Positions 1 to 11,202 of a DNA stretch of 64,000 nt are shown here, piece by piece; position 1 is the stretch's first letter; each line of letters starts with the position of its first letter. Position numbers and translations under genes: made by a program. The notes below the pieces were generated by a model. It was not told the origin of the DNA, searched no databases, and saw nothing but the letters and a program-made list of their open reading frames with translations. The stretch comes from Streptomyces sp. SCSIO 30461 (GTDB lineage Bacteria; Actinomycetota; Actinomycetes; Streptomycetales; Streptomycetaceae): assembly GCF_037023745.1 (NCBI RefSeq), contig NZ_CP146101.1, forward strand, positions 5,341,001 to 5,405,000. The letters run 5' to 3'.

Positions 1-288
1 GGGTGTGGTGGCGAGGTCGAACGCGGGCATCTCTGCCCGGAAGGACGCCGCCTGAGTGGGTGTCATGCCCGCTACCCGGCGCAGATACGCGGTGGAGGTG
101 TCGGAGTTCTCAGCCGTGAAGGCGGGCACGACCACGGTGCCGCCCGGGCCCACCGCCGTGAGCAATGCGTCGCGTACGGCCCCGGCGTCAAGGCCGGTGC
201 CGCCAAGGGCGGCGTGGACGAGGATCGTGCCCCCTGGCTCGATCCCCAACCGCGCGAGGTCGTTCGCAAGCCCGACACGTTCATACAC
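1..288 (-). CDS. AAC(3)-family N-acetyltransferase, 3' end outside the window
   Basis: Only the first 96 codons are inside the window; the gene runs off the left edge. The frame reads L-G-I-x-P-G-G-T-I-L-V-H-A-A-L-G, then a G-P-G-G-T-V-V-V-P-A-F-T segment and an N-S-D-T-S stretch. These match the N-terminal acetyl-CoA-binding part of the aminoglycoside 3-N-acetyltransferase family as I know it. The GTG at 288 lies inside the last codons of fxsB (stop at 281-283), and another GTG is at 300, so translation is probably coupled to fxsB. In FxsA/FxsB loci an acetyltransferase of this family is a known neighbour. It more likely acts on the RiPP product or a related small molecule than as a clinical-type resistance enzyme, but that is inference. 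The substrate cannot be read from the visible part. Confidence 0.8.
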   Translation of the reverse strand, partial: MYERVGLANDLARLGIEPGGTILVHAALGGTGLDAGAVRDALLTAVGPGGTVVVPAFTAENSDTSTAYLRRVAGMTPTQAASFRAEMPAFDLATTP

Positions 289-2530
289 GGCACAGGTCAC
301 GGTTCACCTCTTCCCCAAGCTCTTCTCCCAGCCGCGTCAGCAGGCGTTTCCCGCTGACGGTCAGTTCGGCGGCGCGTTCCAGGGTGGTGAGCGCCCGCAG
401 CGCCTGCTCCGCGGCCTCCGGATCGACCCCCGCGAGACCGGCCCGTTCGTACGCGCCCGCCAGCAGCTCCGATACGGGCACCGGTGCCTCCGCCCACGGC
501 GCCTGATGGCTCCACCAGCCGTCCTGCGCGTACAGGTCGGTCACCTCGCGCAAGGCCTGGAATCGCGCTCTGCGATGGCCGCGCAGCAGCGCGAGTGCCA
601 GCTCCGGGACGTCCGCGTGGAGCGGCAGGCCGAGGGCGCCGAGACCATGCCGGCCCACTGCCGGCTCCCGACCGGAGAGCGGGGTGAGCGTGGTCAGACA
701 CGCCGCCGCGGCGTCCGCCTGCCGCGGGGCCCGCTCACGGAGCAGGCTCCAGGCAGCCGCGAGCCGCCCGGTCCAGTCGGCGGCCGCCTCGGAGCCGAGC
801 CTGGGCGCGGCGGGTACGCCATAGCAGTCTCGGTGCGGATCGAGGTCGTCGATCGCGAGGTCCGGGACCGCTTCGGCACGCTGTCGCAGCCGGCGCACCG
901 GCCGCCAGCCGGCGGCGGGTTCGGCCAGGCGCGTGATCCGGCGCTCGTTGCCGGCGCCCCTCACCAAAAAGCCCTCCCCCATGGGCCGCACCTGCACCAT
1001 GCCATGCTCCTCGGCCCCGGTCAGACGCAACTCACCGAGCGTCGGCAGATACAGGACGCCGCGCTCGTACGGCACCGGGACGGTCAGTTCGGGGCCACCC
1101 CGTACGGCGGCTGCAGCGACCGCCGCGGACAGCCTGGCGGCAGGGGCGGTGCCGGCGGCTGCCCCGAGGGGCTCCTGTTCGAGAACGTCCAGTGCCTCGT
1201 GCAGCCAGCTCACGGTGTACGGGTGGGCCAGCACCTCGTCGAAGCCGAGTCCGTCGGAGTGCTCGACGGCTTCCATGAGTTCCCAGGCACGGGCCCAGTC
1301 CTCACTGCCCCGTCCGGCCAGCGCGTCGTGGAGTCCCGCGAGCAGCAGCCAGGCCAGCTCGTGCTGCTCGGTGCGCAGCGCCGCGGCGTCGGTCACCGCG
1401 GGAGGCACGGACCCGGCCGCGGTGCGCTGCTCGACCCCCCGGATGAGCGCCTCCAGATCGGTGCAGTACACCGATGTGTTGTCGAAGTCCCGGCCGCCGC
1501 GGTACCGGTGGGTGTAGAGACCGCCGCCGCAGGAGCGGACGACGGGGCACTGACGGCAGGTCTCGCCGACACCGGCCAGTCCCAGCTGGCGGGCGCGGAT
1601 ACCAGGATGGGCGGCGACCTCGTCCAGGGAGTGGTCGAAGACGGTGAATCCGGTGGCCGCCGCCCCCTCGTAGGCGCTCTTGAGCGAGTCGACCTGTTCC
1701 AGGGTGCCGTCGGTCTCCACCACGACGAGGTCGGTGGGCGCAAGGCCGAGTGACTCGGTGAGGCTGGAGCCTCCGGAGAGCGTGGAGAGCACCGATTCGA
1801 AGAGCCGGACGGGCACGGGCCTGCGCCTGCGGTCCCAACGGTCGAAGACCGTGAGGATCCAGTCGGCGTAGACGGTCGGCGAGCCGCCGGGCCGCAGGGG
1901 TGGTTCGTCCCAGGTGGCGTGCGGCAGCAGGAAGTCGATGCGCGGTGGATCGAGCTCCATGAGCGCGTCGTACACCGCCACCGGGTCGTTGCGCACATCG
2001 ACGGTGCAGAGCAGACCGAGGTCGAGATGGCGGTAGCGGTCCTGGTGGAGCAACTCCACCGCCCTGAGCACCAGGGGGTGGCTGCTGCGGCCGTCCGCGA
2101 AACGGCGATGCCGGTCGTTGGCTGCCCTGTCACCGTCGAGCGAGATGCCGACCCTGACGCCGAACTCGTCGAAGAGGTCGAGGTAGCGTGGGCTCAGCTG
2201 GAGACCATTGGTGTGGATTCTCAGATCGAGCGCGGCGACGCCGTCGAGGGCGGAGATCAGCTCCTCGCAGATCCGTCGTAACCGGGCGGGACCCGCCAGC
2301 AGTGGCTCCCCTCCGTGCAGGATCACTGTCACGGAGGGTAGTGCATGGGTCTTGGCATGCTCGGCCAGTCGCCGAGCCGTCCAAATAATCGCGTCGTCAG
2401 AGATTGTCCTAGGGCGTGTGCGCCAGCTCTGATCTGCGTGTTCGTAGATATAGCAGTGGTCACATGCGAGATCGCACCTGCTGTGCACCTTGAGGACGAT
2501 CTCACGGAATGGGACCAACGGTCCTGTCAT
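281..2530 (-). CDS. fxsB: FxsB family radical SAM/SPASM RiPP-modifying protein with C-terminal HEXXH-type domain
   Basis: 749 residues. The radical SAM cluster motif C-x3-C-x2-C is Cys19, Cys23 and Cys26, followed by the usual H-G-G-E-P segment. Around residue 330 a SPASM-type region (C-R-Q-C-P, then S-C-G-G-G, then Y-C-T-D) can bind auxiliary iron-sulfur clusters. Such proteins modify ribosomal peptides, here most likely the FxsA peptide whose gene ends 40 bases upstream. The C-terminal half resembles the HEXXH-motif domain often fused to FxsB (D-D-L-D-P-H-R-D-C-Y-G, then L-P-L-H-A-D). Where that family has H-E-x-x-H, this protein reads R-G-H-R-R (about residues 650-654), so the putative metal site looks lost. 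The stop overlaps the start of the acetyltransferase gene, indicating one operon. Confidence 0.9.
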   Translation of the reverse strand: MTGPLVPFREIVLKVHSRCDLACDHCYIYEHADQSWRTRPRTISDDAIIWTARRLAEHAKTHALPSVTVILHGGEPLLAGPARLRRICEELISALDGVAALDLRIHTNGLQLSPRYLDLFDEFGVRVGISLDGDRAANDRHRRFADGRSSHPLVLRAVELLHQDRYRHLDLGLLCTVDVRNDPVAVYDALMELDPPRIDFLLPHATWDEPPLRPGGSPTVYADWILTVFDRWDRRRRPVPVRLFESVLSTLSGGSSLTESLGLAPTDLVVVETDGTLEQVDSLKSAYEGAAATGFTVFDHSLDEVAAHPGIRARQLGLAGVGETCRQCPVVRSCGGGLYTHRYRGGRDFDNTSVYCTDLEALIRGVEQRTAAGSVPPAVTDAAALRTEQHELAWLLLAGLHDALAGRGSEDWARAWELMEAVEHSDGLGFDEVLAHPYTVSWLHEALDVLEQEPLGAAAGTAPAARLSAAVAAAAVRGGPELTVPVPYERGVLYLPTLGELRLTGAEEHGMVQVRPMGEGFLVRGAGNERRITRLAEPAAGWRPVRRLRQRAEAVPDLAIDDLDPHRDCYGVPAAPRLGSEAAADWTGRLAAAWSLLRERAPRQADAAAACLTTLTPLSGREPAVGRHGLGALGLPLHADVPELALALLRGHRRARFQALREVTDLYAQDGWWSHQAPWAEAPVPVSELLAGAYERAGLAGVDPEAAEQALRALTTLERAAELTVSGKRLLTRLGEELGEEVNRDLCRV

Positions 2531-2570
2531 TCCACCAGTCTAGGGTCAGGCCGAGGGCCTGGAGCCCATA

Positions 2571-2735
2571 CTAGAGAGCAGAGTTGAAACTCGGCACCCG
2601 ATCGGTCCTGCCGACGGAAGCGGGACGCACACGGCCCAGCTTCCTGACGGCGTCGGCACCGTGCACGTCGATCTCGGTGACGGGCACACGATTCTTCTTC
2701 GCGGCGGCGAAGGCGGTTGAGGTCTGGAAGGTCAC
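2571..2735 (-). CDS. fxsA: FxsA-type RiPP precursor peptide (FxSxx-COOH protein)
   Basis: A 54-residue reading frame starting at GTG 2735 and ending at TAG 2571-2573. An in-frame stop lies nine codons upstream of the GTG, and A-G-G-A-C-G-G precedes it at ribosome-binding distance. The C-terminus is V-P-S-F-N-S-A-L, exactly the F-x-S-x-x-COOH ending that names the FxsA family. The middle holds V-P-V-T-E-I-D-V and L-G-R-V-R-P, which resemble the conserved leader of these peptides as I remember them. It lies 40 bases upstream of fxsB in the same direction, the standard order for precursor and maturase. The peptide is small and basic, with no signal peptide or membrane segment. The mature product and its activity are unknown; only the family assignment is firm. 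Confidence 0.85.
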   Translation of the reverse strand: MTFQTSTAFAAAKKNRVPVTEIDVHGADAVRKLGRVRPASVGRTDRVPSFNSAL

Positions 2736-2781
2736 GACGGCCGTCCTAGGTCATCTTGTGCTAATACGGAGCGCCGCACCG

Positions 2782-2810
2782 TTGCAGTGTCGGCGGCACG
2801 ACTTTACTCT
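2782..2810 (+). promoter_or_regulatory. Candidate promoter of the SLATT-type gene
   Basis: TTGCAG (2782-2787), a 17-base spacer and TACTCT (2805-2810) form a plausible housekeeping-sigma promoter. It faces the membrane protein gene at 2937 and leaves a leader of about 120 bases. It lies in the divergent region shared with fxsA. Inferred from sequence only. Confidence 0.4.
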
Positions 2811-2936
2811 CATGGCCACCCACAGCAACTCGTCACGTAGGTCTACGGCAAAAGCGTGGCGCGAGTATTCCCCACTCCGAACGGAACAAGCCATTCCATC
2901 GAAAGAGTGAAGCCAAATCCGCCGAGGGGGGTACGC

Positions 2937-3869
2937 ATGGCCGGGGTTCCCGGACATCTGCAAAGCATGGTCTTCCGAAACGCTGATCTGCCGGTTCTCT
3001 TCCACCGAACCGATGAGACGGCCATCTCACGCCAGCGCGAGGCCGTCAACGGCACCCGGCTGCAGCTGCTGCTGCTCGTCCTGGGCGCCGCCCTGGCCGC
3101 GCTGCCCTGGCGTGGCGCGATCGGCGCGTCCTTCCAACTCACCGGCCTCCTGAGCGTGTTGGCGTACGCCGGAGTGCTCGTGGTCAGCTTCCGCGGTTCT
3201 CGCCAGCGAGCAAAGTCGCACTGGCAACTCAACAGGTCGGCCGCGGAGTTCATCCGCTCGATGTGCTGGCGGTACGCCGTCCACGGCACCCCCTTCGACT
3301 CCGGCTCCCCCGACCCCGACCGGCTGTTCGTCACCCGCCTGGAAGAGGGGCTGGCCGAGCTGAAGAAGGTCGGCTGGACGGACCCGCGCGCATCCGGGGA
3401 GACGGCGGTCGGTACGGAGCTCATCACCACACCGATGCGGCTGCTGCGGGAGAAGGGGTTCAGTGCACGCAAGGAGACCTATGTGCGAGACCGGTTGATC
3501 GAGCAACGCAACTGGTACCACCGCCGCATGGAGGTCTCCCGCCGTGCCACCCTGCTGTGGCAGGTGACCATCGGCCTGCTCACCGTCTTGGCCCTGCTCT
3601 TCGGGACCCTGCGCACCTTCTCGGTCACCGAGTCCCCGGAGCCGCTCGGGCTGCTCTCGGCTGCCGCCGCCGCGTGTCTGGCCTGGAGCGAGATCCGCCG
3701 CCACCAGCCTCTGATCGCCGCCCATTCACTGGTGGAGGAGGACCTGGCGGCGATTCACATCGCGATGGAGACCTCGGTGACCGAGCAGCAGTGGCCGTCC
3801 GCCGTGTACGAGACCGAGCGGATCGTCTCCCCGCAGCACACGGACTGGCTGGTACGCCACCGCAGTTGA
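2937..3869 (+). CDS. SLATT/DUF4231-type four-helix membrane protein
   Basis: 310 residues from the ATG at 2937, chosen because G-A-G-G-G-G-G-G precedes it at good spacing; an upstream ATG at 2856 has no such site. Two hydrophobic helices lie near residues 42-85. A long polar stretch follows, then a second pair of helices near residues 200-250. This paired two-helix layout, each pair flanked by helical charged segments, fits SLATT and DUF4231 proteins. Those are membrane effectors found with SLOG or nucleotide-signal-generating proteins (SMODS and SLOG associated). There is no signal peptide or enzyme motif. It converges with the SLOG-domain gene, 21 bases between stops, and is divergent from fxsA. 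A pore-forming or membrane-disrupting role is inferred from the family, not seen. The DUF4231 match is from memory of its pattern. Confidence 0.65.
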   Translation: MAGVPGHLQSMVFRNADLPVLFHRTDETAISRQREAVNGTRLQLLLLVLGAALAALPWRGAIGASFQLTGLLSVLAYAGVLVVSFRGSRQRAKSHWQLNRSAAEFIRSMCWRYAVHGTPFDSGSPDPDRLFVTRLEEGLAELKKVGWTDPRASGETAVGTELITTPMRLLREKGFSARKETYVRDRLIEQRNWYHRRMEVSRRATLLWQVTIGLLTVLALLFGTLRTFSVTESPEPLGLLSAAAAACLAWSEIRRHQPLIAAHSLVEEDLAAIHIAMETSVTEQQWPSAVYETERIVSPQHTDWLVRHRS

Positions 3870-3890
3870 CGCCCCGGTCGGCGGCACAGG

Positions 3891-4370
3891 TCAGGCCCGC
3901 TGCACACCGGGCTGCCAGATGACGGTGACCGGCGTGCCCGTCCGCCGTGCGTACCGCACGATGTCGCCGGTCCCGCCGACCCCCCGGGCGGGCAACCCGT
4001 CCCAGACCGCGAGCAGCCGGTCGCAGTTGTCGGCGATGAAGGCCCCGGCGGCGTAGTAGGCCTCGTCGGTGGACTGGTCGAACGCCATACGGATCTCCTG
4101 ACTGGCCAGACTGCGCAGGCTGCGGAACCTGGCCAGTTCCTCCGGCTGGTCGAAGTCCTCCTCGTAGTTGCCGCTCGGAATGACGACGGTGAGTGCCGCA
4201 CCGCACTCGAGGGCGATGTCGGCGAAGATCTGGTCGGCTCCGACCGCCAGGCTGGACAGTGCTTCCAGCGAGCCGCTGTGCCCGCACAGCAGCGTGCGAA
4301 TGGCGTCGCGGACATGGGGCATGGCCTCGGGCGGGATGTTCCGGTGGCCGGTCACTCCGATGCGCTTCAA
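3891..4370 (-). CDS. SLOG-domain (Rossmann-like, putative nucleotide-ligand sensor) protein
   Basis: 159 residues, essentially one domain. The N-terminus reads I-G-V-T-G-H-R-N at residues 4-11. It is followed by S-S-L-A-V-G-A-D-Q, then V-I-P-S-G-N-Y-E, and near the C-terminus L-L-A-V-W-D-G-L and G-G-T-G-D-I-V. These are the glycine-rich and aspartate-containing segments of the SLOG superfamily (related to DprA and LOG), which bind nucleotides or nucleotide-derived ligands. No DNA-binding or LOG catalytic motif was recognised, so a sensor role is preferred. Its stop lies 21 bases from that of the SLATT-type gene on the other strand; the convergent pair is consistent with sensor and membrane effector. 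The ligand is unknown. Confidence 0.65.
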   Translation of the reverse strand: MKRIGVTGHRNIPPEAMPHVRDAIRTLLCGHSGSLEALSSLAVGADQIFADIALECGAALTVVIPSGNYEEDFDQPEELARFRSLRSLASQEIRMAFDQSTDEAYYAAGAFIADNCDRLLAVWDGLPARGVGGTGDIVRYARRTGTPVTVIWQPGVQRA

Positions 4371-4520
4371 GATCGAACCCCCCAGAAAGACCCAACGCTG
4401 CGCGACCGTCCTGACATCCTCTCAAATCAACGCAAGACGTCGAGTCCCCGTCCCTCGATTCGGACACCGGTGGGTGACGGGGAGGACCTCATGGAGCCTC
4501 ATCCCTCACCAACCCGGCAG

Positions 4521-4560
4521 CATTCGGCCCCACCGGACGGAAGCCCGGTGGGGCCGAATG
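4521..4560 (-). terminator. Terminator hairpin downstream of sprB
   Basis: A perfect 16-bp stem (4521-4536 with 4545-4560) and an 8-base loop. It stands 129 bases beyond the sprB stop and before the SLOG gene, so it probably ends the sprB transcript. There is no U-tract, as is common in Streptomyces. I see nothing else in the 318-base gap 4371-4688. Confidence 0.7.
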
Positions 4561-4688
4561 GGAGCGCCTTCGCGCCCCTGGTGTCCGCGCCGGGCTGCGG
4601 GGCGGCCGCGAATCGGAGCGCCGCACGACGTGGCAACGGGCCTACGGGGCGAACGAGGCCGGATGAGGCCGGACCGAGTCCGGCGCGA

Positions 4689-5594
4689 TCAGTACACGCT
4701 GACGCCGTACGCGCGGAGCGCCTCGGTCACCGGCTGGAAGTAGGTCGTGCCGCCGGTGGTGCAGTTGCCACTACCACCCGAGGTCAGGCCGATGGCCCGG
4801 CTGCCGGAGTACAGCGAGCCACCGCTGTCGCCCGGCTCGGCGCAGACGTTCGTGCGGATCATTCCGTAGACGATGTCCCCACCGCCGTAGTTGACGGTGG
4901 CATTGAGTCCGGTCACCGAACCGCTGCGGGTGCCGGTGGTCGAACCGCGACGGGTCACGGACATCCCGACGGTGGCGTTGGCGGCACTGGTGATGTCGAC
5001 ACCGCCGACAGTGCCGGACTTGGAGATCGAGGTGTTGGTGTAGCGGACGATTCCGTAGTCGTTGACCGGGAAGCTGGAGCCGACGGTGGGGCCGAGGACG
5101 GTGGTACGGGAGGAGTTGGAGTACCAGGTGCCCGCGCCGTCGGTGCAGTGGCCCGCAGTCAGGAAGTACGTGTTGCCTGCGCTGTCTCGGACATTGAAGC
5201 CCAGCGAGCAGCGCCAGCTCGACGCGTAGACGGCGTCGCCGCCCGAGATGAGCCGGCGGATCTTGCCCGGGGTTCGCTCGATGCGGAGCGCACCGGCGTT
5301 GGCTCCGGCAGTCTGCTTGATCCTGGCCAGCGCCGCCCGGGAGACGGTGGAGTCGGCGGTGACGACCAGGGTGCCGGTCGCCTGATCGATGTGCCAGGCG
5401 GTTCCGGCCACATCGGCTTGCAGCACGGCGTCGCTCGCGGCGGAGAGCTGTGACACGCTGAATGTGCGGGGGGCCTCGTCGGCGCTGGCGGTGGGGACGG
5501 CCAGAGCTGCGGCTGCTACGAGGCCTGTGGTGAGGGCGAGCAGACGGGTACGTCTCGTCGCTCCGTTGCGGGGGATGGTGCGCTTGATCCTCAC
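4689..5594 (-). CDS. sprB: Streptogrisin B-like secreted serine protease precursor (S1E, alpha-lytic type)
   Basis: 301 residues laid out as a pre-pro-protease. A twin-basic N-terminus, a hydrophobic stretch and an A-S-A cleavage site at about residue 38 form the signal peptide. An alpha-lytic-type propeptide runs to about residue 115 and the mature chain begins at I-S-G-G-D-A. The catalytic triad is visible as T-A-G-H-C, N-D-Y-G-I-V and G-D-S-G-G. The C-terminus A-Y-G-V-S-V-Y and most of the body closely match Streptomyces griseus protease B as I remember it; protease A is the main alternative. The protein is exported and matures autocatalytically. It has its own terminator and a long upstream gap, so it is probably monocistronic and growth-phase controlled. 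Confidence 0.92.
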
Positions 5595-6032
5595 TTCGCG
5601 TTCCTCCAGAGGGGAATCGGGGACCCGCCTGTGGGGTGACGGGCCCGTGAGGCGCAGTCGATGGAGCAGGGGATCGCGGGATTCCAGCTCCGCTGTGCTC
5701 CTGACAAGCGCTTGCTCGGGAGTATTCGTAGCGTCAACTACCGGCGCAAGGGTGCCTTTCGGTCTTGTGACACGAGTGACTCCTCGCCGTCTTCCGCCCG
5801 TCGGCGGACCGGACGAAACGGCCGGTTCCGCCCGGCTGCCACGACATGATGGTCCGGGGCGGACCCGACCGGACGGTCGTTTCCCCCGGTGGGGGTGCGG
5901 ACGGCGGTCGGGCGATGGCGGGCCTGCTCAGGCCGTCCGACCGATACGACGACACGACCCGTCCGGGTGTGATGTCCCTCACACCCCATATGCGGCTCGG
6001 CCGGAAGTCGATGTTCCGGTGCCGACGGGAGC
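5595..6032. other. Intergenic region upstream of sprB
   Basis: 438 bases between the sprB start and the stop of the DUF5685 gene. It must carry the sprB promoter and the end of the DUF5685 transcript. A TTGACG occurs on the minus strand near 5740, but I find no convincing -10 at the right distance. No convincing gene, RNA or repeat was recognised. Confidence 0.4.
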
Positions 6033-7265
6033 TCAGCAGCCGTCACACGGGCAGCAGCAGTCGCAACTGCCGCAGTTGCAGCAGTCGCAGTCCCGGCAGC
6101 AGCCCTTGCGCTTCTTGCGGGACCAGGGGCCCTCGTACTCCTCGGCGCAGCACAGCCTGCAGGTGCAGCACAGGCCGATGAAGGCGCCGCAGCCGGCCCA
6201 GAAGCCGCGCGGCTGCGGTCGGTGCGGGCCGTCACCGAACCGCGGGGAGTGCCCGCCGGGGCCGCCCGGGCCTCCGGTCGCGCCGTAACCGCCGCCATGG
6301 GGACCGTACGAGCCATGCGGGCCGGCCTGCCCGGACGATCCACCGGCGGGGTCGGAGCCGTACGGGTTTCCCTGCGGAGGCTGCGAGCCGTACCCCTGGT
6401 GCGAGCAGTCGGCCGAGCCGAAGGCCCGGTCCACGGACCGCCTGAGTTCGTGCGCGAGCAGCATGTGCAGCAGTCCGTCGTCGACGAACTCCGCGTCCCG
6501 CAGCGCGAGCCGGATGCCGTGCAGCGCGTCGTCAGCGAGGCGCCGCGCCTCCGCCGACGAGGTCCCGGTCGCCGCCAGCGGGTTCCAGGCGCCCGACAGG
6601 GCGTCGGCTTCCCCGTCCTCCACGGCGTCCAGCAGATGGGCGAGGCGCCCGAAAAGCCTGCCGGCCTCGGCGAGTGGGGCGACGTTCTGCGGTCGACCGG
6701 CCAGTACGGCGGTGTGCGCGAAGGCGGCCGCCGTCGCAGTCTCGGTGGGCTCGGTCACCACCAGCAGCGGAGTGCCGGGGCCTGCGAGCACCTCGATCCC
6801 CGTCTGCCGATCCACCGCATCGACCAGCACGTCGGTGTCGAAGCCGACTCCTCGCCCTGTGCGCGCACCGGCGCGGGCCCAGTTCCCGGCGACCTTGCGC
6901 GCCGCGGCCGCCACCGGCCTGCGGGCCAGCAGCCCGTCGCGGTCGGCCACATGATCGCGCACCTTCGCCGACGCGAGCACCAGGGAGACGGCGGCGGCCA
7001 GCCGCGCGCCCTCGCCCTGCGCGACGGGTGCCGTGCGCATCGCCCGCAGCGGGCACGGCCCCGCCTTCCTGCGCGACCCTGCCGACGGAGTGATCTGAGC
7101 CTCCGTCAGCACCGAGAGGATGAGGCCGTCGTAGTTGGTGACGACTCTGGCGAACTGCCCGTGGTCCGAGCGAAGGGCCAGGCAGAGCCCGCAGAGATGC
7201 GCCATCCACTCCGTCCTGAGGCCGTCGGTCAGGCGATGGGTGCAGGGTCTGACGATTCCGAACAC
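6033..7265 (-). CDS. DUF5685 family protein with cysteine-rich C-terminal tail
   Basis: 410 residues. The N-terminus (M-F-G-I-V-R-P-C, L-C-G-L-C-L-A-L, T-N-Y-D-G-L) is the conserved start of a Streptomyces family called DUF5685, function unknown. The middle is helical with no enzyme motif I recognise. From about residue 290 a Gly/Pro/Tyr-rich linker leads to a tail with 18 cysteines in roughly the last 56 residues, many as CC or C-x-C pairs. Such a tail could bind metal or form an iron-sulfur or disulfide network; this is inference. No signal peptide is present. The gene is divergent from sflA, with 299 bases between them that probably carry both promoters. Confidence 0.7.
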   Translation of the reverse strand: MFGIVRPCTHRLTDGLRTEWMAHLCGLCLALRSDHGQFARVVTNYDGLILSVLTEAQITPSAGSRRKAGPCPLRAMRTAPVAQGEGARLAAAVSLVLASAKVRDHVADRDGLLARRPVAAAARKVAGNWARAGARTGRGVGFDTDVLVDAVDRQTGIEVLAGPGTPLLVVTEPTETATAAAFAHTAVLAGRPQNVAPLAEAGRLFGRLAHLLDAVEDGEADALSGAWNPLAATGTSSAEARRLADDALHGIRLALRDAEFVDDGLLHMLLAHELRRSVDRAFGSADCSHQGYGSQPPQGNPYGSDPAGGSSGQAGPHGSYGPHGGGYGATGGPGGPGGHSPRFGDGPHRPQPRGFWAGCGAFIGLCCTCRLCCAEEYEGPWSRKKRKGCCRDCDCCNCGSCDCCCPCDGC

Positions 7266-7564
7266 GACATACCCCCCGAGGAGTCGTTCGAGTGAGCGGG
7301 CCGCATCCTACCCGCCAGACCCTTTAGCCCATACGCGCCGAACGTCACCCATCCGGCACGACATTCATATTTTGCTTCGATATGAGGCCCCTGAGGGTCC
7401 CTCAGGGCTTCTATTCAGGAACAATGTTGACGAAACGCCACAACTTCTGCACCAGTACCGTCACGAAAACCTCGCGCGGCGACTATCCCCTTGGCGCGCG
7501 ATCCGCATCATGGACGACCATAGTGACGCGGAACCTCAAGTGACCGCGTTGAAAGGAGGCGTCC

Positions 7565-7999
7565 ATGGCATCGGTACGCAAGGCGAGCGCATGGCTGGGG
7601 CTTGTCGAGGACAACGACGAGCGGTACTACGACGACGAGTACTCCGAGGGTACGGGAGCGGCCGAGCAGTGGGTCACCGACCCGCGGGTCCGGGTGGCCT
7701 CCGAGACGGCGCAGGAGCAGGGACGCCGGATCGCCACCATCTCCCCCGACAGCTTCCGCGACGCGCGCATGATCGGCGAGCACTTCCGGGAAGGCGTCCC
7801 GGTCATCGTCAACCTGACCTCGATGGAGCCCTCCGACGCCAAGCGCGTCGTCGACTTCGCGGCCGGGCTGACCTTCGGGCTGCGGGGCTCCATCGAGCGG
7901 GTGGCGACCAGGGTCTTCCTGCTGACCCCCGCCGACACGGAGATCGTCACCGGCGAGCCCACCGGCCACACCGGTGACGGCTTCTTCAACCAGAGCTGA
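7565..7999 (+). CDS. sflA: SepF-like cell-division protein, SflA type
   Basis: 144 residues, the usual size for SepF proteins. A short N-terminal membrane-targeting-type helix and an acidic Asp/Tyr-rich linker (residues 20-35) lead to the SepF core: [12 protein letters not shown], then [22 protein letters not shown] and a final F-L-L-T-P. SepF tethers FtsZ to the membrane. Streptomyces has a true SepF in the division cluster plus two paralogues, SflA and SflB, that limit ectopic FtsZ assembly. This copy is not beside ftsZ. Its neighbours (a DUF5685 gene and an acyl-CoA dehydrogenase) match my memory of the SflA locus. The ribosome site A-A-A-G-G-A-G-G five bases before ATG 7565 is unusually strong. 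SflB is the alternative. Confidence 0.8.
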
Positions 8000-8089
8000 G
8001 TCCGGGATGCACCCCGGCCACACGCCCCGGTCCGCGACGGGGCCGTCGTACCGCTCGGCACGGCGTTCGCCTGTCTGCCCAGCGCTCCG

Positions 8090-8156
8090 GGCCGTGTTCC
8101 AGGAGTCCCGCCTGGCCCGCCCTTCGGGCGGCCGGCGCCGCTCCCGGAACACGGCC
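8090..8156. terminator. Bidirectional terminator between sflA and the acyl-CoA dehydrogenase gene
   Basis: An 11-bp perfect inverted repeat (8090-8100 with 8146-8156) encloses a second GC-rich hairpin near 8115-8132 with a C-C-G-C-C-C stem. It lies between two convergent genes, and its last base is the first base of the dehydrogenase stop triplet. Confidence 0.65.
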
Positions 8157-9346
8157 TAACGGAAGGCGTCCTGACCCGTGAGCGCCTTGCCGAGCACCAG
8201 CTGGTGCATCTCCACGGTCCCCTCGTAGGTGAGCACCGATTCGAGATTGGTCGCGTGACGCATCACGGGGTACTCCAGTGAGATCCCGTTGGCGCCGAGG
8301 ATGGTCCGCGAGGTGCGGCAGATCTCGATCGCTTCCCGCACGTTGTTGAGCTTCCCGAAGCTGACCTGCTCGGGCCGGAGCCTCCCGGCGTCCATCCGCC
8401 GCCCGAGGTGCAGGGCGAGCAGGATCCCCTTGTGCAGTTCCAGCGCCATGTCGGCGAGTTTGGCCTGGGTGAGCTGGAAGCCCCCGATGGGCCGGCCGAA
8501 CTGCTCGCGTGTCCTGGCGTAGTCGAGCGCGGCCTCGAAGCTGGAACGGGCCGCCCCCATCGCGCCCCACACAATGCCGTAGCGCGCGTGGGACAGGCAG
8601 CTGAGCGGGCCCTTGAGACCGGTGACACCCGGCAGCACCGCGTCGGCGGGCAGACGCACCTCGTCCAGGACGAGTTCACTGGTGACGGAGGCGCGCAGGG
8701 ACCACTTGTGCTTGATCTCGGGAGCGGAGAAGCCGGGGCTGTCGGTCGGTACGGCGAAGCCGCGGATACCGTCGTCGGTCTGGGCCCACACCACCGCGAC
8801 CCCGGCGACGGAACCATTGGTGATCCACATCTTGCTGCCCGTCAGAACCCAGTCGGCACCGTCCCGCTTGGCGCACGTGCGCATCGCCGCCGGATCGGAA
8901 CCGACGTCCGGCTCCGTCAGTCCGAAGCAGCCGATGGTGCTGCCATCGGCCATCGACGGCAGCCAACGCTGCTTCTGCTCCTCCGAGCCGAACTTCCAGA
9001 TCGCGTACATCGCGAGTGAGCCCTGGACGGACACCAGCGAACGGATACCCGAGTCGGCCGCCTCCAGCTCCAGACAGGCCAGTCCGTACTGGACGGCCGT
9101 GGCGCCCGCGCAGCCGTAGCCGGTCAGCGACATGCCGAGCGCGCCGATCGAGCCCAGCTCACGGGCGAGCTCACGGATACCGGGAAGCTCACCGCTCTCG
9201 TACCAGTCGGCGACATACGGCAGCACGCGGTCGTCAGCCCAGGAGCGGACCGTGTCGCGAATCGCGAGGTCTTCCGGCTCCAGGAGGTCGTCGATGCCGA
9301 TGGGGTCGGCTGGATCGAAGGGCGGCAACTTCGAGGATGCGGTCAT
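8156..9346 (-). CDS. Acyl-CoA dehydrogenase, glutaryl-CoA dehydrogenase-like
   Basis: 396 residues from the ATG at 9346, preceded by G-G-A-G-G at seven bases. The full acyl-CoA dehydrogenase fold is present: N-terminal helical domain, a flavin-binding middle with G-C-F-G-L-T-E-P-D-V-G-S-D and W-I-T-N-G, and a C-terminal domain ending T-Y-E-G-T-V-E-M-H. The glutamate in Y-E-G-T is the catalytic base position of the glutaryl-CoA dehydrogenase group. R-T-R-E-Q-F-G-R-P-I is also present. It would oxidise an acyl-CoA with FAD and pass electrons to ETF. Glutaryl-CoA (lysine/tryptophan breakdown) is the most likely substrate, but no pathway neighbours are here. Stand-alone between a terminator and an MFS gene. 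Confidence 0.85.
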   Translation of the reverse strand: MTASSKLPPFDPADPIGIDDLLEPEDLAIRDTVRSWADDRVLPYVADWYESGELPGIRELARELGSIGALGMSLTGYGCAGATAVQYGLACLELEAADSGIRSLVSVQGSLAMYAIWKFGSEEQKQRWLPSMADGSTIGCFGLTEPDVGSDPAAMRTCAKRDGADWVLTGSKMWITNGSVAGVAVVWAQTDDGIRGFAVPTDSPGFSAPEIKHKWSLRASVTSELVLDEVRLPADAVLPGVTGLKGPLSCLSHARYGIVWGAMGAARSSFEAALDYARTREQFGRPIGGFQLTQAKLADMALELHKGILLALHLGRRMDAGRLRPEQVSFGKLNNVREAIEICRTSRTILGANGISLEYPVMRHATNLESVLTYEGTVEMHQLVLGKALTGQDAFR

Positions 9347-9441
9347 CAGGGTGCCTCCGGCGGCCGGCACCGCCCAGGCCCTGCCTCGGCGCGTGCGCGA
9401 ACCTAACGGTGTCAGTCAATGATCAGCGCTGACGTTACGGC

Positions 9442-11202
9442 TCAGTGTGCCGTGCGTCCAGAGCGGGCCGCGCCGGCCGCCTCCGCGGGCTTGCGGTGCA
9501 GGGAGGCGGCGGACGAGCGCAGACGGTCCCGTGGCCCCTGCACCGCCTGGTCGGGGAGTTCGGAGACGTACGACCGGGCATCGGTGCCGGACGCCCCGGA
9601 ACCGGTGCCCGGCGCGCCACAGGCCTGAGCGACCACCGTGGCGTCCTCGGTGTCCTCGGCCCCGTCGGGGCACTCCATCGCCCTCGGCAACCGCAGTGCC
9701 GCCAGCGCCCCGAGCAGCAGCAGCCCGGCGCTGACCACCAGCGTGACATGCAGACCGTGCACAAACGCCGACCGCGCGGCGATCCGCAGCGCGTCCCCTG
9801 CCGGGCCGCTGAGGCCCGCGGCGATCTGGTAGGCCTCGCCGAGGGAGTTCGTCGCGGCCTCGCGGGCGGCGCCCGGCACCCCTGCCGCATCGGTCAGCCC
9901 TGGCGCGTACGCGGCGTTCATGACGCTGCCGAGCATGGCGATGCCCATCCCGGCACCGAGTTGGTAGGAGGTCTCGCCGATGGCCGCGGCTGCACCGGCC
10001 TGCGCCGCGGGTGCCTCGCTGAGCATCGACTCGTACGCGCCGAACAGCGTGGTCTGGAGCCCGAAGCCGAGCAGCACGAACCCGGTGGTGAGCAGCAGCG
10101 GCCGGTCGTGGTGTCCCATCAGCGTGAGCAGCAGCACCGCCGCCGCGGTCAGCACGAAGCCCCAGCCGACCATCCGCCGCGGTCCGACACGGCGCAGGGT
10201 GTAGGAGCCGGTCGCTCCGGCGGCCATCGCCGCGAAGGTGAGGGGCAGCAGCCGCAGGCCGGTCTCCAGGGGGCTGAGACCGAGCACGAGCTGGAGGTAC
10301 TGGACGGCGATCAGCTCCAGGCCGACCAGTGCCAGCATGGCCAGCACGATGCAGCCGACGGAAGTGGAGAAGGTGGCGCGGGCGAACATCCGCATGTCGA
10401 TGAGGGGATGGTCGCGGCGGCGCTGGCGGCGGACGAAGAGCACGAGGAGCAGCAGACCGGCGAGCAGCGGGCCGGAGGTGGCGATGTCGAGCGGGCTGTG
10501 GCCCACCCCGAGACGCTTGACACCGAGCACGAGCCCGAGCACACCGGCGGCGGCCGTCAGAGCGCCGACGACGTCCCAGGGGCCGTCGCCTTCGCCCTTG
10601 GACTCGGGCAGCAGCCAGCGGCCGACCGGGAGGATCAGCGCCATCAGCGGGATGTTGATCAGGAAGACCGAACCCCACCAGAAGTGCTGGACCAGGAAAC
10701 CGCCGAGCACCGGGCCGGTGGCGGCGCCGACCGCGGCGACCGCCGTCCAGATGCCGATGGCGGTGGCCCGCTCACGGCGGTCCGGGAAGACGGCCCGGAG
10801 GATCGAGAGCGTCGCGGGCATGATCATCGCGCCGCCCACGCCGAGCAGGGCGCGGGCGCCGATGAGCACCTCGGGATTGGTGGCCAGCGCGGCGACGGCC
10901 GAGGCCACGCCGAACAGCGCGTAGCCGAGCAGGAGTATGCGCCGACGGCCGACGCGGTCGCCCAGGGTGCCGAAGAGGATCAGCAGCGCGGCGCAGACCA
11001 GCGGGTAGGCGTCGACGATCCAGAGGAGTTCGACCCCGCTCGGGCGGAGGTCCTCGGTGACTGCGGGCACGGCGACGTGCAGCACGGTCGCGTCGAGCGC
11101 GACGAGCAGCAGGCTGACGCAGAGGACGAGGAGAACGACCCAGCGGTTGACACCGCCGCCGGTGGCGCGAATGGGCGCTCCGGTCGTGGTCGTTCCGGAC
11201 AT
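9442..11202 (-). CDS. MFS drug exporter, DHA2 (14-helix) family
   Basis: 586 residues from the ATG at 11202, which has A-G-G-A-G-G seven bases upstream; longer frames lack such a site. About 14 hydrophobic segments are visible. The N-terminal helix ends in L-D-A-T-V-L-H-V-A-V-P, the DHA2 motif, and G-D-R-V-G-R-R between helices 2 and 3 is the MFS signature. The C-terminal ~90 residues are a cytoplasmic tail rich in Ser, Gly and Ala. Members exchange protons for cationic or hydrophobic drugs (QacA/SmvA type). No TetR regulator is adjacent, so control is unknown. An exporter function is secure; the substrate is not predictable. Confidence 0.85.
   Translation of the reverse strand: MSGTTTTGAPIRATGGGVNRWVVLLVLCVSLLLVALDATVLHVAVPAVTEDLRPSGVELLWIVDAYPLVCAALLILFGTLGDRVGRRRILLLGYALFGVASAVAALATNPEVLIGARALLGVGGAMIMPATLSILRAVFPDRRERATAIGIWTAVAAVGAATGPVLGGFLVQHFWWGSVFLINIPLMALILPVGRWLLPESKGEGDGPWDVVGALTAAAGVLGLVLGVKRLGVGHSPLDIATSGPLLAGLLLLVLFVRRQRRRDHPLIDMRMFARATFSTSVGCIVLAMLALVGLELIAVQYLQLVLGLSPLETGLRLLPLTFAAMAAGATGSYTLRRVGPRRMVGWGFVLTAAAVLLLTLMGHHDRPLLLTTGFVLLGFGLQTTLFGAYESMLSEAPAAQAGAAAAIGETSYQLGAGMGIAMLGSVMNAAYAPGLTDAAGVPGAAREAATNSLGEAYQIAAGLSGPAGDALRIAARSAFVHGLHVTLVVSAGLLLLGALAALRLPRAMECPDGAEDTEDATVVAQACGAPGTGSGASGTDARSYVSELPDQAVQGPRDRLRSSAASLHRKPAEAAGAARSGRTAH

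Follow-up and report, generated by a model that had tools for sequence, protein, structure and literature searches.

What does the small open reading frame directly upstream of the maturase gene fxsB in Streptomyces sp. SCSIO 30461 encode, and in which system would its product act? The frame lies in a stretch of 64,000 nucleotides (contig NZ_CP146101.1, positions 5,341,001 to 5,405,000), in the following called the window, and a sequence-only reading had described it as an unannotated FxsA-type precursor of a ribosomally synthesized and post-translationally modified peptide (RiPP). That it is an FxsA-type precursor was borne out by profile match, position, an invariant core and purifying selection. 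The frame is a real precursor gene, fxsA, of an already named cyclophane peptide family, and for this precursor and maturase part of the interpretation our confidence is very high.

The fxsA gene and its conservation

The frame was found just as it had been read, with a GTG start, 54 residues, an FNSAL end and a gap of 40 nucleotides to the start of fxsB at position 2530; both genes are on the minus strand, on which the earlier description was silent (Table 1). An AGGA stretch, the likely ribosome-binding site, was read from the sequence 8 nucleotides upstream of the GTG. The window contains 796 frames that run for 40 codons or more up to a stop, with a start codon or not, and among them fxsA is the sole case with an FxSxx ending. 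A scan of positions 2500-3000 for promoters and terminators found neither, and an Rfam search of positions 1-10000 gave no match. The remark that the frame is too small for routine gene calling was overstated, as 54 codons are presumably not below the usual minimum.

For comparison, 559 FxsB relatives were confirmed in a scan of genome contigs and the closest 80 were kept as named-record loci, all of them titled Streptomyces except one titled [Kitasatospora] papulosa; some strains are common to this set and to a second set, 30 loci of the same genus whose maturase has the FxsBH form. An FxSxx-ending frame directly precedes fxsB in 80 of the 80 named-record loci and in 29 of the 30 same-genus loci (the window's included), and at the remaining locus (L019) the contig breaks off within fxsB. 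Loss of the frame where fxsB is kept, which the sequence-only reading had named as evidence against its proposal, is thus not what these loci display. The endings in the named-record set are FNSAL (55), FSSAL (18), FNSSL (6) and FSSSL (1); an extra FWSRL ending, from a second frame at one locus, was left out of the alignment. With a permissive Shine-Dalgarno pattern, of which the longest fit was chosen, every one of the 80 related loci has a start codon (GTG in 69, ATG in 11) with a Shine-Dalgarno-like stretch 53-64 codons from the stop, and the length is exactly 54 codons in 57 of them.

Alignment with fxsA from other Streptomyces, one of the checks suggested earlier, showed that Arg35, Phe50, Ser52 and Leu54 are invariant in 81 sequences, with a leader consensus resembling RVPLAxIDVR...KLGRV. 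The proposed synonymous-site comparison likewise points to a translated frame: the pooled proportion of synonymous differences (pS) was 0.51 against 0.32 for nonsynonymous ones (pN), and the median ratio of the corresponding rates (dN/dS) was 0.47 over 3153 of 3240 pairs, which are not independent, have a high pS and exclude the pairs outside set bounds. When the comparison was widened to 54 FxsB-type loci, with up to three residues allowed after the Ser, 41 had an FxSxx-type frame and 13 had none, nine of the latter coming from one other family with a distant FxsB.

With regards to family membership, the NCBIfam model TIGR04268 (FxSxx-COOH cyclophane-containing RiPP peptide) matches residues 13-54 with an E-value of 4.7e-5, so that the profile search suggested earlier does detect the frame, and with 23.5 bits, which is below the curated cut-off of 28 bits and thus does not reach the model's naming score. 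Since the score stays under the cut-off, we call the frame FxsA by position and alignment and not by the naming rule of the model; it has the F-x-S-x-x ending at its C-terminus and stands beside a radical S-adenosylmethionine (SAM)/SPASM gene of the FxsB family. By an E-value that we estimated to equal the cut-off and applied to the 81 precursors, 62 reach it and the window's FxsA does not, so that TIGR04268 misses part of the family at its own loci (about 19 of 81 by this estimate). Pfam and PHROGs gave no match to FxsA. Compared with the known FxSxx-COOH precursors and their FxsB (TIGR04269; FxsBH, NF040587), the core motif, the place before fxsB and the scores of FxsB above both model cut-offs are alike, and the window's precursor differs solely by its own score below the cut-off. 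That score is also what speaks for a chance open frame upstream of fxsB, an explanation which we consider extremely improbable and, in view of the conserved frame, the conserved end and the coding constraint, refuted.

Table 1. Features of the fxsA region, with positions counted from the first nucleotide of the window.
Feature	Position	Strand	Basis
fxsA, 54-codon precursor gene, GTG start	2571..2735 (read from 2735 to 2571)	minus	sequence, profile, conservation
Leader part of fxsA, consensus RVPLAxIDVR...KLGRV, R35 invariant	2589..2735	minus	alignment
C-terminal core codons F50-N51-S52-A53-L54, predicted Phe50-Ser52 cross-link	2574..2588	minus	F50, S52 and L54 invariant; chemistry by analogy
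AGGA, likely ribosome-binding site of fxsA	2744..2747	minus	sequence; Shine-Dalgarno-like stretch in 80/80 relatives (permissive pattern)
fxsB (FxsBH, inactivated-hydroxylase form), radical SAM/SPASM maturase with C-terminal extension	281..2530	minus	TIGR04269, NF040587
Radical SAM/SPASM domain, residues 8-367, CxxxCxxC at C19, C23 and C26	1430..2509	minus	profile, motif
Hydroxylase-like extension, residues 375-738, without HExxH	317..1408	minus	NF040587, motif scan
FrbF/AAC(3)-fold acyltransferase, 5' part	1..300, continues past the window edge (L004:9518-10300)	minus	PF02522, 237.9 bits
SLATT protein (SLATT_3 and SLATT_1), divergent from fxsA	2937..3869	plus	profiles; 80/80 loci
SLOG protein, YpsA/DprA-like predicted fold, tail to tail with the SLATT gene	3891..4370	minus	predicted structure; 80/80 loci

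FxsB and the predicted cross-link

The maturase scores 585.7 bits against TIGR04269 (cut-off 370) and 416 bits against NF040587, the "inactivated beta-hydroxylase extension form" (cut-off 225). Consistent with the latter, a motif scan found no HExxH in its extension. The motif occurs as HEFQH in 8 of the 41 loci with a long extension and is absent in all 21 loci of the window's group. A match to the PADLOC pVip model, which would suggest a viperin-like enzyme, is weak (30.9 bits) and of a kind that any radical SAM domain may give, and we rejected this reading. Viral contigs were scanned for FxsB relatives as well; 15 stretches fit the pattern and none was confirmed.

With the triceptides MscA/MscB, the locus shares the FxS motif and, if MscB is an FxsB-family enzyme as we assume, also the type of maturase. 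The part of a review that deals with MscB (PMC11002830) describes its product as a three-residue cyclophane in which C4 of Phe is joined to Cbeta of Ser. The earlier statement that the product is uncharacterized holds for the window's locus. By analogy, FxsB would recognize the conserved FxsA leader and link the ring of Phe50 with the Ser52 beta-carbon, close to the free C-terminus. The fused hydroxylase-like domain, having lost HExxH, would probably only handle the substrate. The enzymatic cross-linking step is well supported by this analogy, and we infer the later steps from the gene linkage and from earlier predictions.

The same genome carries a second cyclophane locus (G000:C1, about 7.78 Mb), where a HaaT-type TPR protein (NF041717, 1608.8 bits) is followed by another radical SAM enzyme of the FxsB family (TIGR04269, 411 bits; L005:4302-8638). 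Beside this haa locus, frames that by eye resemble a methyltransferase and a lantibiotic-type dehydratase/cyclase were seen (L005:9678-15343).

Partner genes and their linkage

In the sequence-only reading, fxsA, fxsB and an acetyltransferase formed a cassette. The fxsA/fxsB pair stands, but the cassette was incomplete, and its third member is optional and FrbF-like rather than an aminoglycoside enzyme. The acyltransferase occurs in 7 of the 21 loci of the window's group, in 35 of the 80 named-record loci and in 22 of the 54 loci of the wider set, mostly between fxsB and fxsC; it lies beyond the hydrolase in L057 and L064, before the FxsB gene in L074 and after it in L076. At the window its longest frame overlaps fxsB by 20 nucleotides. 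Besides its PF02522 match it shares with the FrbF/AAC(3)-fold acyltransferases a score of 167.6 bits to FrbF, its closest solved relative, but reaches just 150.3 bits against the model of the aminoglycoside enzymes AAC(3) (NF033082, cut-off 270), and a role in aminoglycoside resistance is thus unsupported.

Steadier partners are FxsC, FxsT and an alpha/beta hydrolase and, in this clade, also a SLATT and a SLOG protein. The earlier reader could not see the first three, because all of them are encoded outside the window. FxsC and FxsT are encoded alongside at the same locus, with NF040588, TIGR04276 and NF040586 over their cut-offs, and FxsT is composed of ParA-like, TIR, NB-ARC and TPR parts. 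Of the 70 FxsC matches, 51 have the hydrolase within 15 kb, 50 of the 63 hydrolase matches are near an FxsC, and in four genomes with two Fxs loci each locus has its own copy; by this proximity and copy number it looks like a regular Fxs partner. It occurs in loci with and without HExxH alike. The SLATT protein exceeds the cut-offs of the SLATT_1 and SLATT_3 domains. Its neighbor, a standalone protein of 159 amino acids, has on its predicted model the YpsA/DprA/LOG-type Rossmannoid fold of the SLOG superfamily and matches a DprA-like PHROG (E 1.3e-4); Pfam and NCBIfam searches at E 0.1 gave no family, and 4 of 33 relatives weakly touch PF10686.

The linkage was followed through several sets of loci. 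Of the 21 loci made up of the window's own and 20 of the 29 other same-genus loci, all carry SLOG, SLATT, FxsB, FxsC and FxsT, and the hydrolase lies inside 20 of the stretches and just outside the remaining one (G126). Among the 80 named-record loci, SLATT and SLOG were found in 80 each, FxsC in 78, FxsT in 76 and the hydrolase in 75, the misses of the last three being due to short contigs except at locus L159. SLATT lies upstream in 62 of these loci and downstream in 18, which may represent one rearrangement. In 150 genomes of the genus, FxsBH (over its cut-off), SLATT (>200 bits) and SLOG (>150 bits) were found in 42 genomes apiece; the 42 are identical for SLATT and SLOG, and 40 of them also have FxsBH. 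At the searches' own thresholds, SLATT is found in 44 and SLOG in 75 of the 150. In 40 further stretches chosen for diversity, SLATT is present in eight, namely seven Fxs loci and one stretch, L075. None of six genes flanking the window's locus was found in eight diverged loci tested, so either the island moved or its surroundings did. A tie between HExxH loss and SLATT gain was rejected, because L058 and L060-L063 lack HExxH and SLATT as well.

Possible roles of the modified peptide

For Phe-Ser cyclophane peptides the chemistry is known and the job is not. Here, fxsA shares its island with genes for an immune-receptor-like protein, a predicted sensor of nucleotides and a protein predicted to form membrane pores, which hints at a function of the peptide in alarm or self-destruction. 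We lean slightly towards an explanation in which the cyclophane peptide works within an island resembling nucleotide-binding leucine-rich repeat (NLR) immune receptors, and we regard its alarm part as an even call. FxsT would probably act as sensor or switch, with FxsC as a TIR-like partner; the modified peptide, as their signal or checkpoint, would in the most likely mode transmit or mark an alarm state that FxsT and FxsC read. In some strains, the FrbF-like enzyme might beforehand acylate an amine of the cross-linked peptide. The nucleotide signal of the TIR arm could then be read by the SLOG protein, and the SLATT protein, with two predicted transmembrane segments, could alter membrane permeability, both (SLOG with its predicted YpsA fold) being attached to the island in this Streptomyces clade.

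Parts of this picture are already known, as FxsA, FxsB, FxsC and FxsT are named families and the prediction of a conflict role dates from 2020. In that prediction (Kaur et al., PMC7159879, section 24), FxSxx peptides serve AP-ATPase conflict systems as toxin or signal; standalone systems with an inactive MinD-like domain are mentioned as well. These standalone systems share with the window's locus the FxSxx peptide, the radical SAM/SPASM enzyme and a protein with ParA-like, NB-ARC and TPR parts; they have a zincin metallopeptidase, whereas the FxsB domain of the window lacks HExxH, and a separate HExxH protein was not searched for at its locus. Section 24 of that article does not mention SLOG, SLATT, the alpha/beta hydrolase or the acyltransferase with FxSxx peptides, and although the article covers both SLATT and radical SAM enzymes, SLATT belongs to GTPase systems in the portions considered. 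In passages by Iyer and colleagues (2022; PMC9503650), TIR adjoins SLATT in phages and SLOG is treated as a sensor of cyclic ADP-ribose variants; as in other conflict systems, a SLATT effector is encoded at this island. As in Thoeris (TIR protein ThsB, SLOG effector ThsA), TIR-like proteins are encoded beside a SLOG-fold protein. In ThsA, however, SLOG is fused to SIR2, whereas the window's SLOG protein is standalone and without a SIR2 domain, and the island adds the NLR-like FxsT and the modified peptide. A literature search found no prior report that couples SLATT or SLOG to FxSxx peptides; it did not cover the 2015 paper naming SLATT and SLOG, which may hold one. If the coupling is functional, it would give this peptide class a testable role, the control of an NLR-like, membrane-acting pathway, and would link RiPP chemistry with bacterial immunity. 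A further version is a split Thoeris, in which a bacterial NLR pathway has the peptide as its own inbuilt trigger or checkpoint, with a nucleotide signal made by the TIR domains of FxsT/FxsC that SLOG reads, SLATT opening the membrane and the acyltransferase tuning the peptide; we consider it unlikely.

Several results weigh against a shared immune function. Among defense-system models, none matched FxsC, SLATT, SLOG or FxsA, and FxsT (L004:4141-8094) matched a candidate model (PADLOC PDC-M28B, 81 bits) over its ParA-like part alone. The predicted structure of FxsC is poor in the TIR part (mean predicted local distance difference test score 60.1) and in Foldseek its top hits are TIR/NLR entries from plants, none better than E 1.6e-3; we dropped any claim on this part from the model as too poor. 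The FxsC glutamate E114 is kept and may be catalytic, judging from one PDB match at E 0.95. No protease freeing the FxsA core was identified. Locus L159 has fxsA, fxsB, the acyltransferase, SLATT and SLOG but neither FxsC nor FxsT nor the hydrolase within 12 kb, and two genomes (G054, G040) have the FxsBH form without SLATT. The Fisher test of co-occurrence (p 1.6e-31) treats genomes as independent. Mapped on a tree built from 54 FxsB sequences, the SLATT label requires 5 changes, where shuffled labels give 18.2 on average. Common descent thus accounts for much of the co-occurrence; the tree suggests a single main gain, some losses, and one or two additional gains (L074 and L093, both on long branches).

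These few SLATT and SLOG gains also favor an ordinary secreted or stored triceptide, for example an antibiotic-like one, made by fxsA and fxsB beside FxsC, FxsT, SLATT and SLOG as neighbors by descent that act separately. The gene order of the window, largely that of related chromosomes, agrees with this, as do the 26 of the 54 Fxs-type loci without SLATT and the genome G057, in which SLATT and SLOG orthologs stand side by side (L075; G057:C1, about 6.458 Mb) with no fxs gene within 10 kb or in the 20-kb stretch, its Fxs locus being elsewhere (L064). However, the linkage holds in the 18 of 80 loci that have the second gene order and in seven diverged loci lacking the six flanking genes tested, FxsC and FxsT flank FxsB in 78 and 76 of 80 loci with three or four of the misses at a contig end, and a transporter or export gene was not seen among the neighbors tested, although no dedicated search for one was made. 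We judge this explanation doubtful. In a guard or antitoxin role, modified FxsA would hold off FxsT/FxsC, and once the peptide is lost, as when host synthesis is shut down by a phage, the TIR and SLATT effectors would be set free. Such a role would suit a small, conserved, constantly made peptide encoded beside an NLR-like protein and predicted effectors, and the invariant key residues of the FxSxx end would suit a fixed binding determinant; the same facts fit an alarm signal, and we find the guard rather improbable. Very unlikely is a developmental regulator, with FxsT as a regulator of the type "signal transduction ATPases with numerous domains" (STAND) and the peptide as an internal cue for Streptomyces differentiation. 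Most loci found come from this multicellular genus, and HaaT, the related TPR protein of the second cyclophane locus, scores 364.5 bits against AfsR, a Streptomyces antibiotic regulatory protein (SARP), under a cut-off of 1430. FxsT, however, has ParA-like and TIR parts, with a SARP or helix-turn-helix match not reported in the profile searches, and most genomes of the genus lack the island (FxsBH form in 42 of 150).

At the edges of the island, streptogrisin-like protease frames (named by eye, about 48% mutual match) at positions 4689-5594 of the window and at L004:1749-2954 flank it on both sides in most of the 21 loci. As leader peptidases they were set aside, being missing from diverged loci and, by their make-up, secreted. 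Two frames further right, at 6033-7265 and 7565-7999, gave no NCBIfam match at E 0.1; we take the first to encode a protein whose C-terminus is Cys-rich and the second to encode one resembling SepF.
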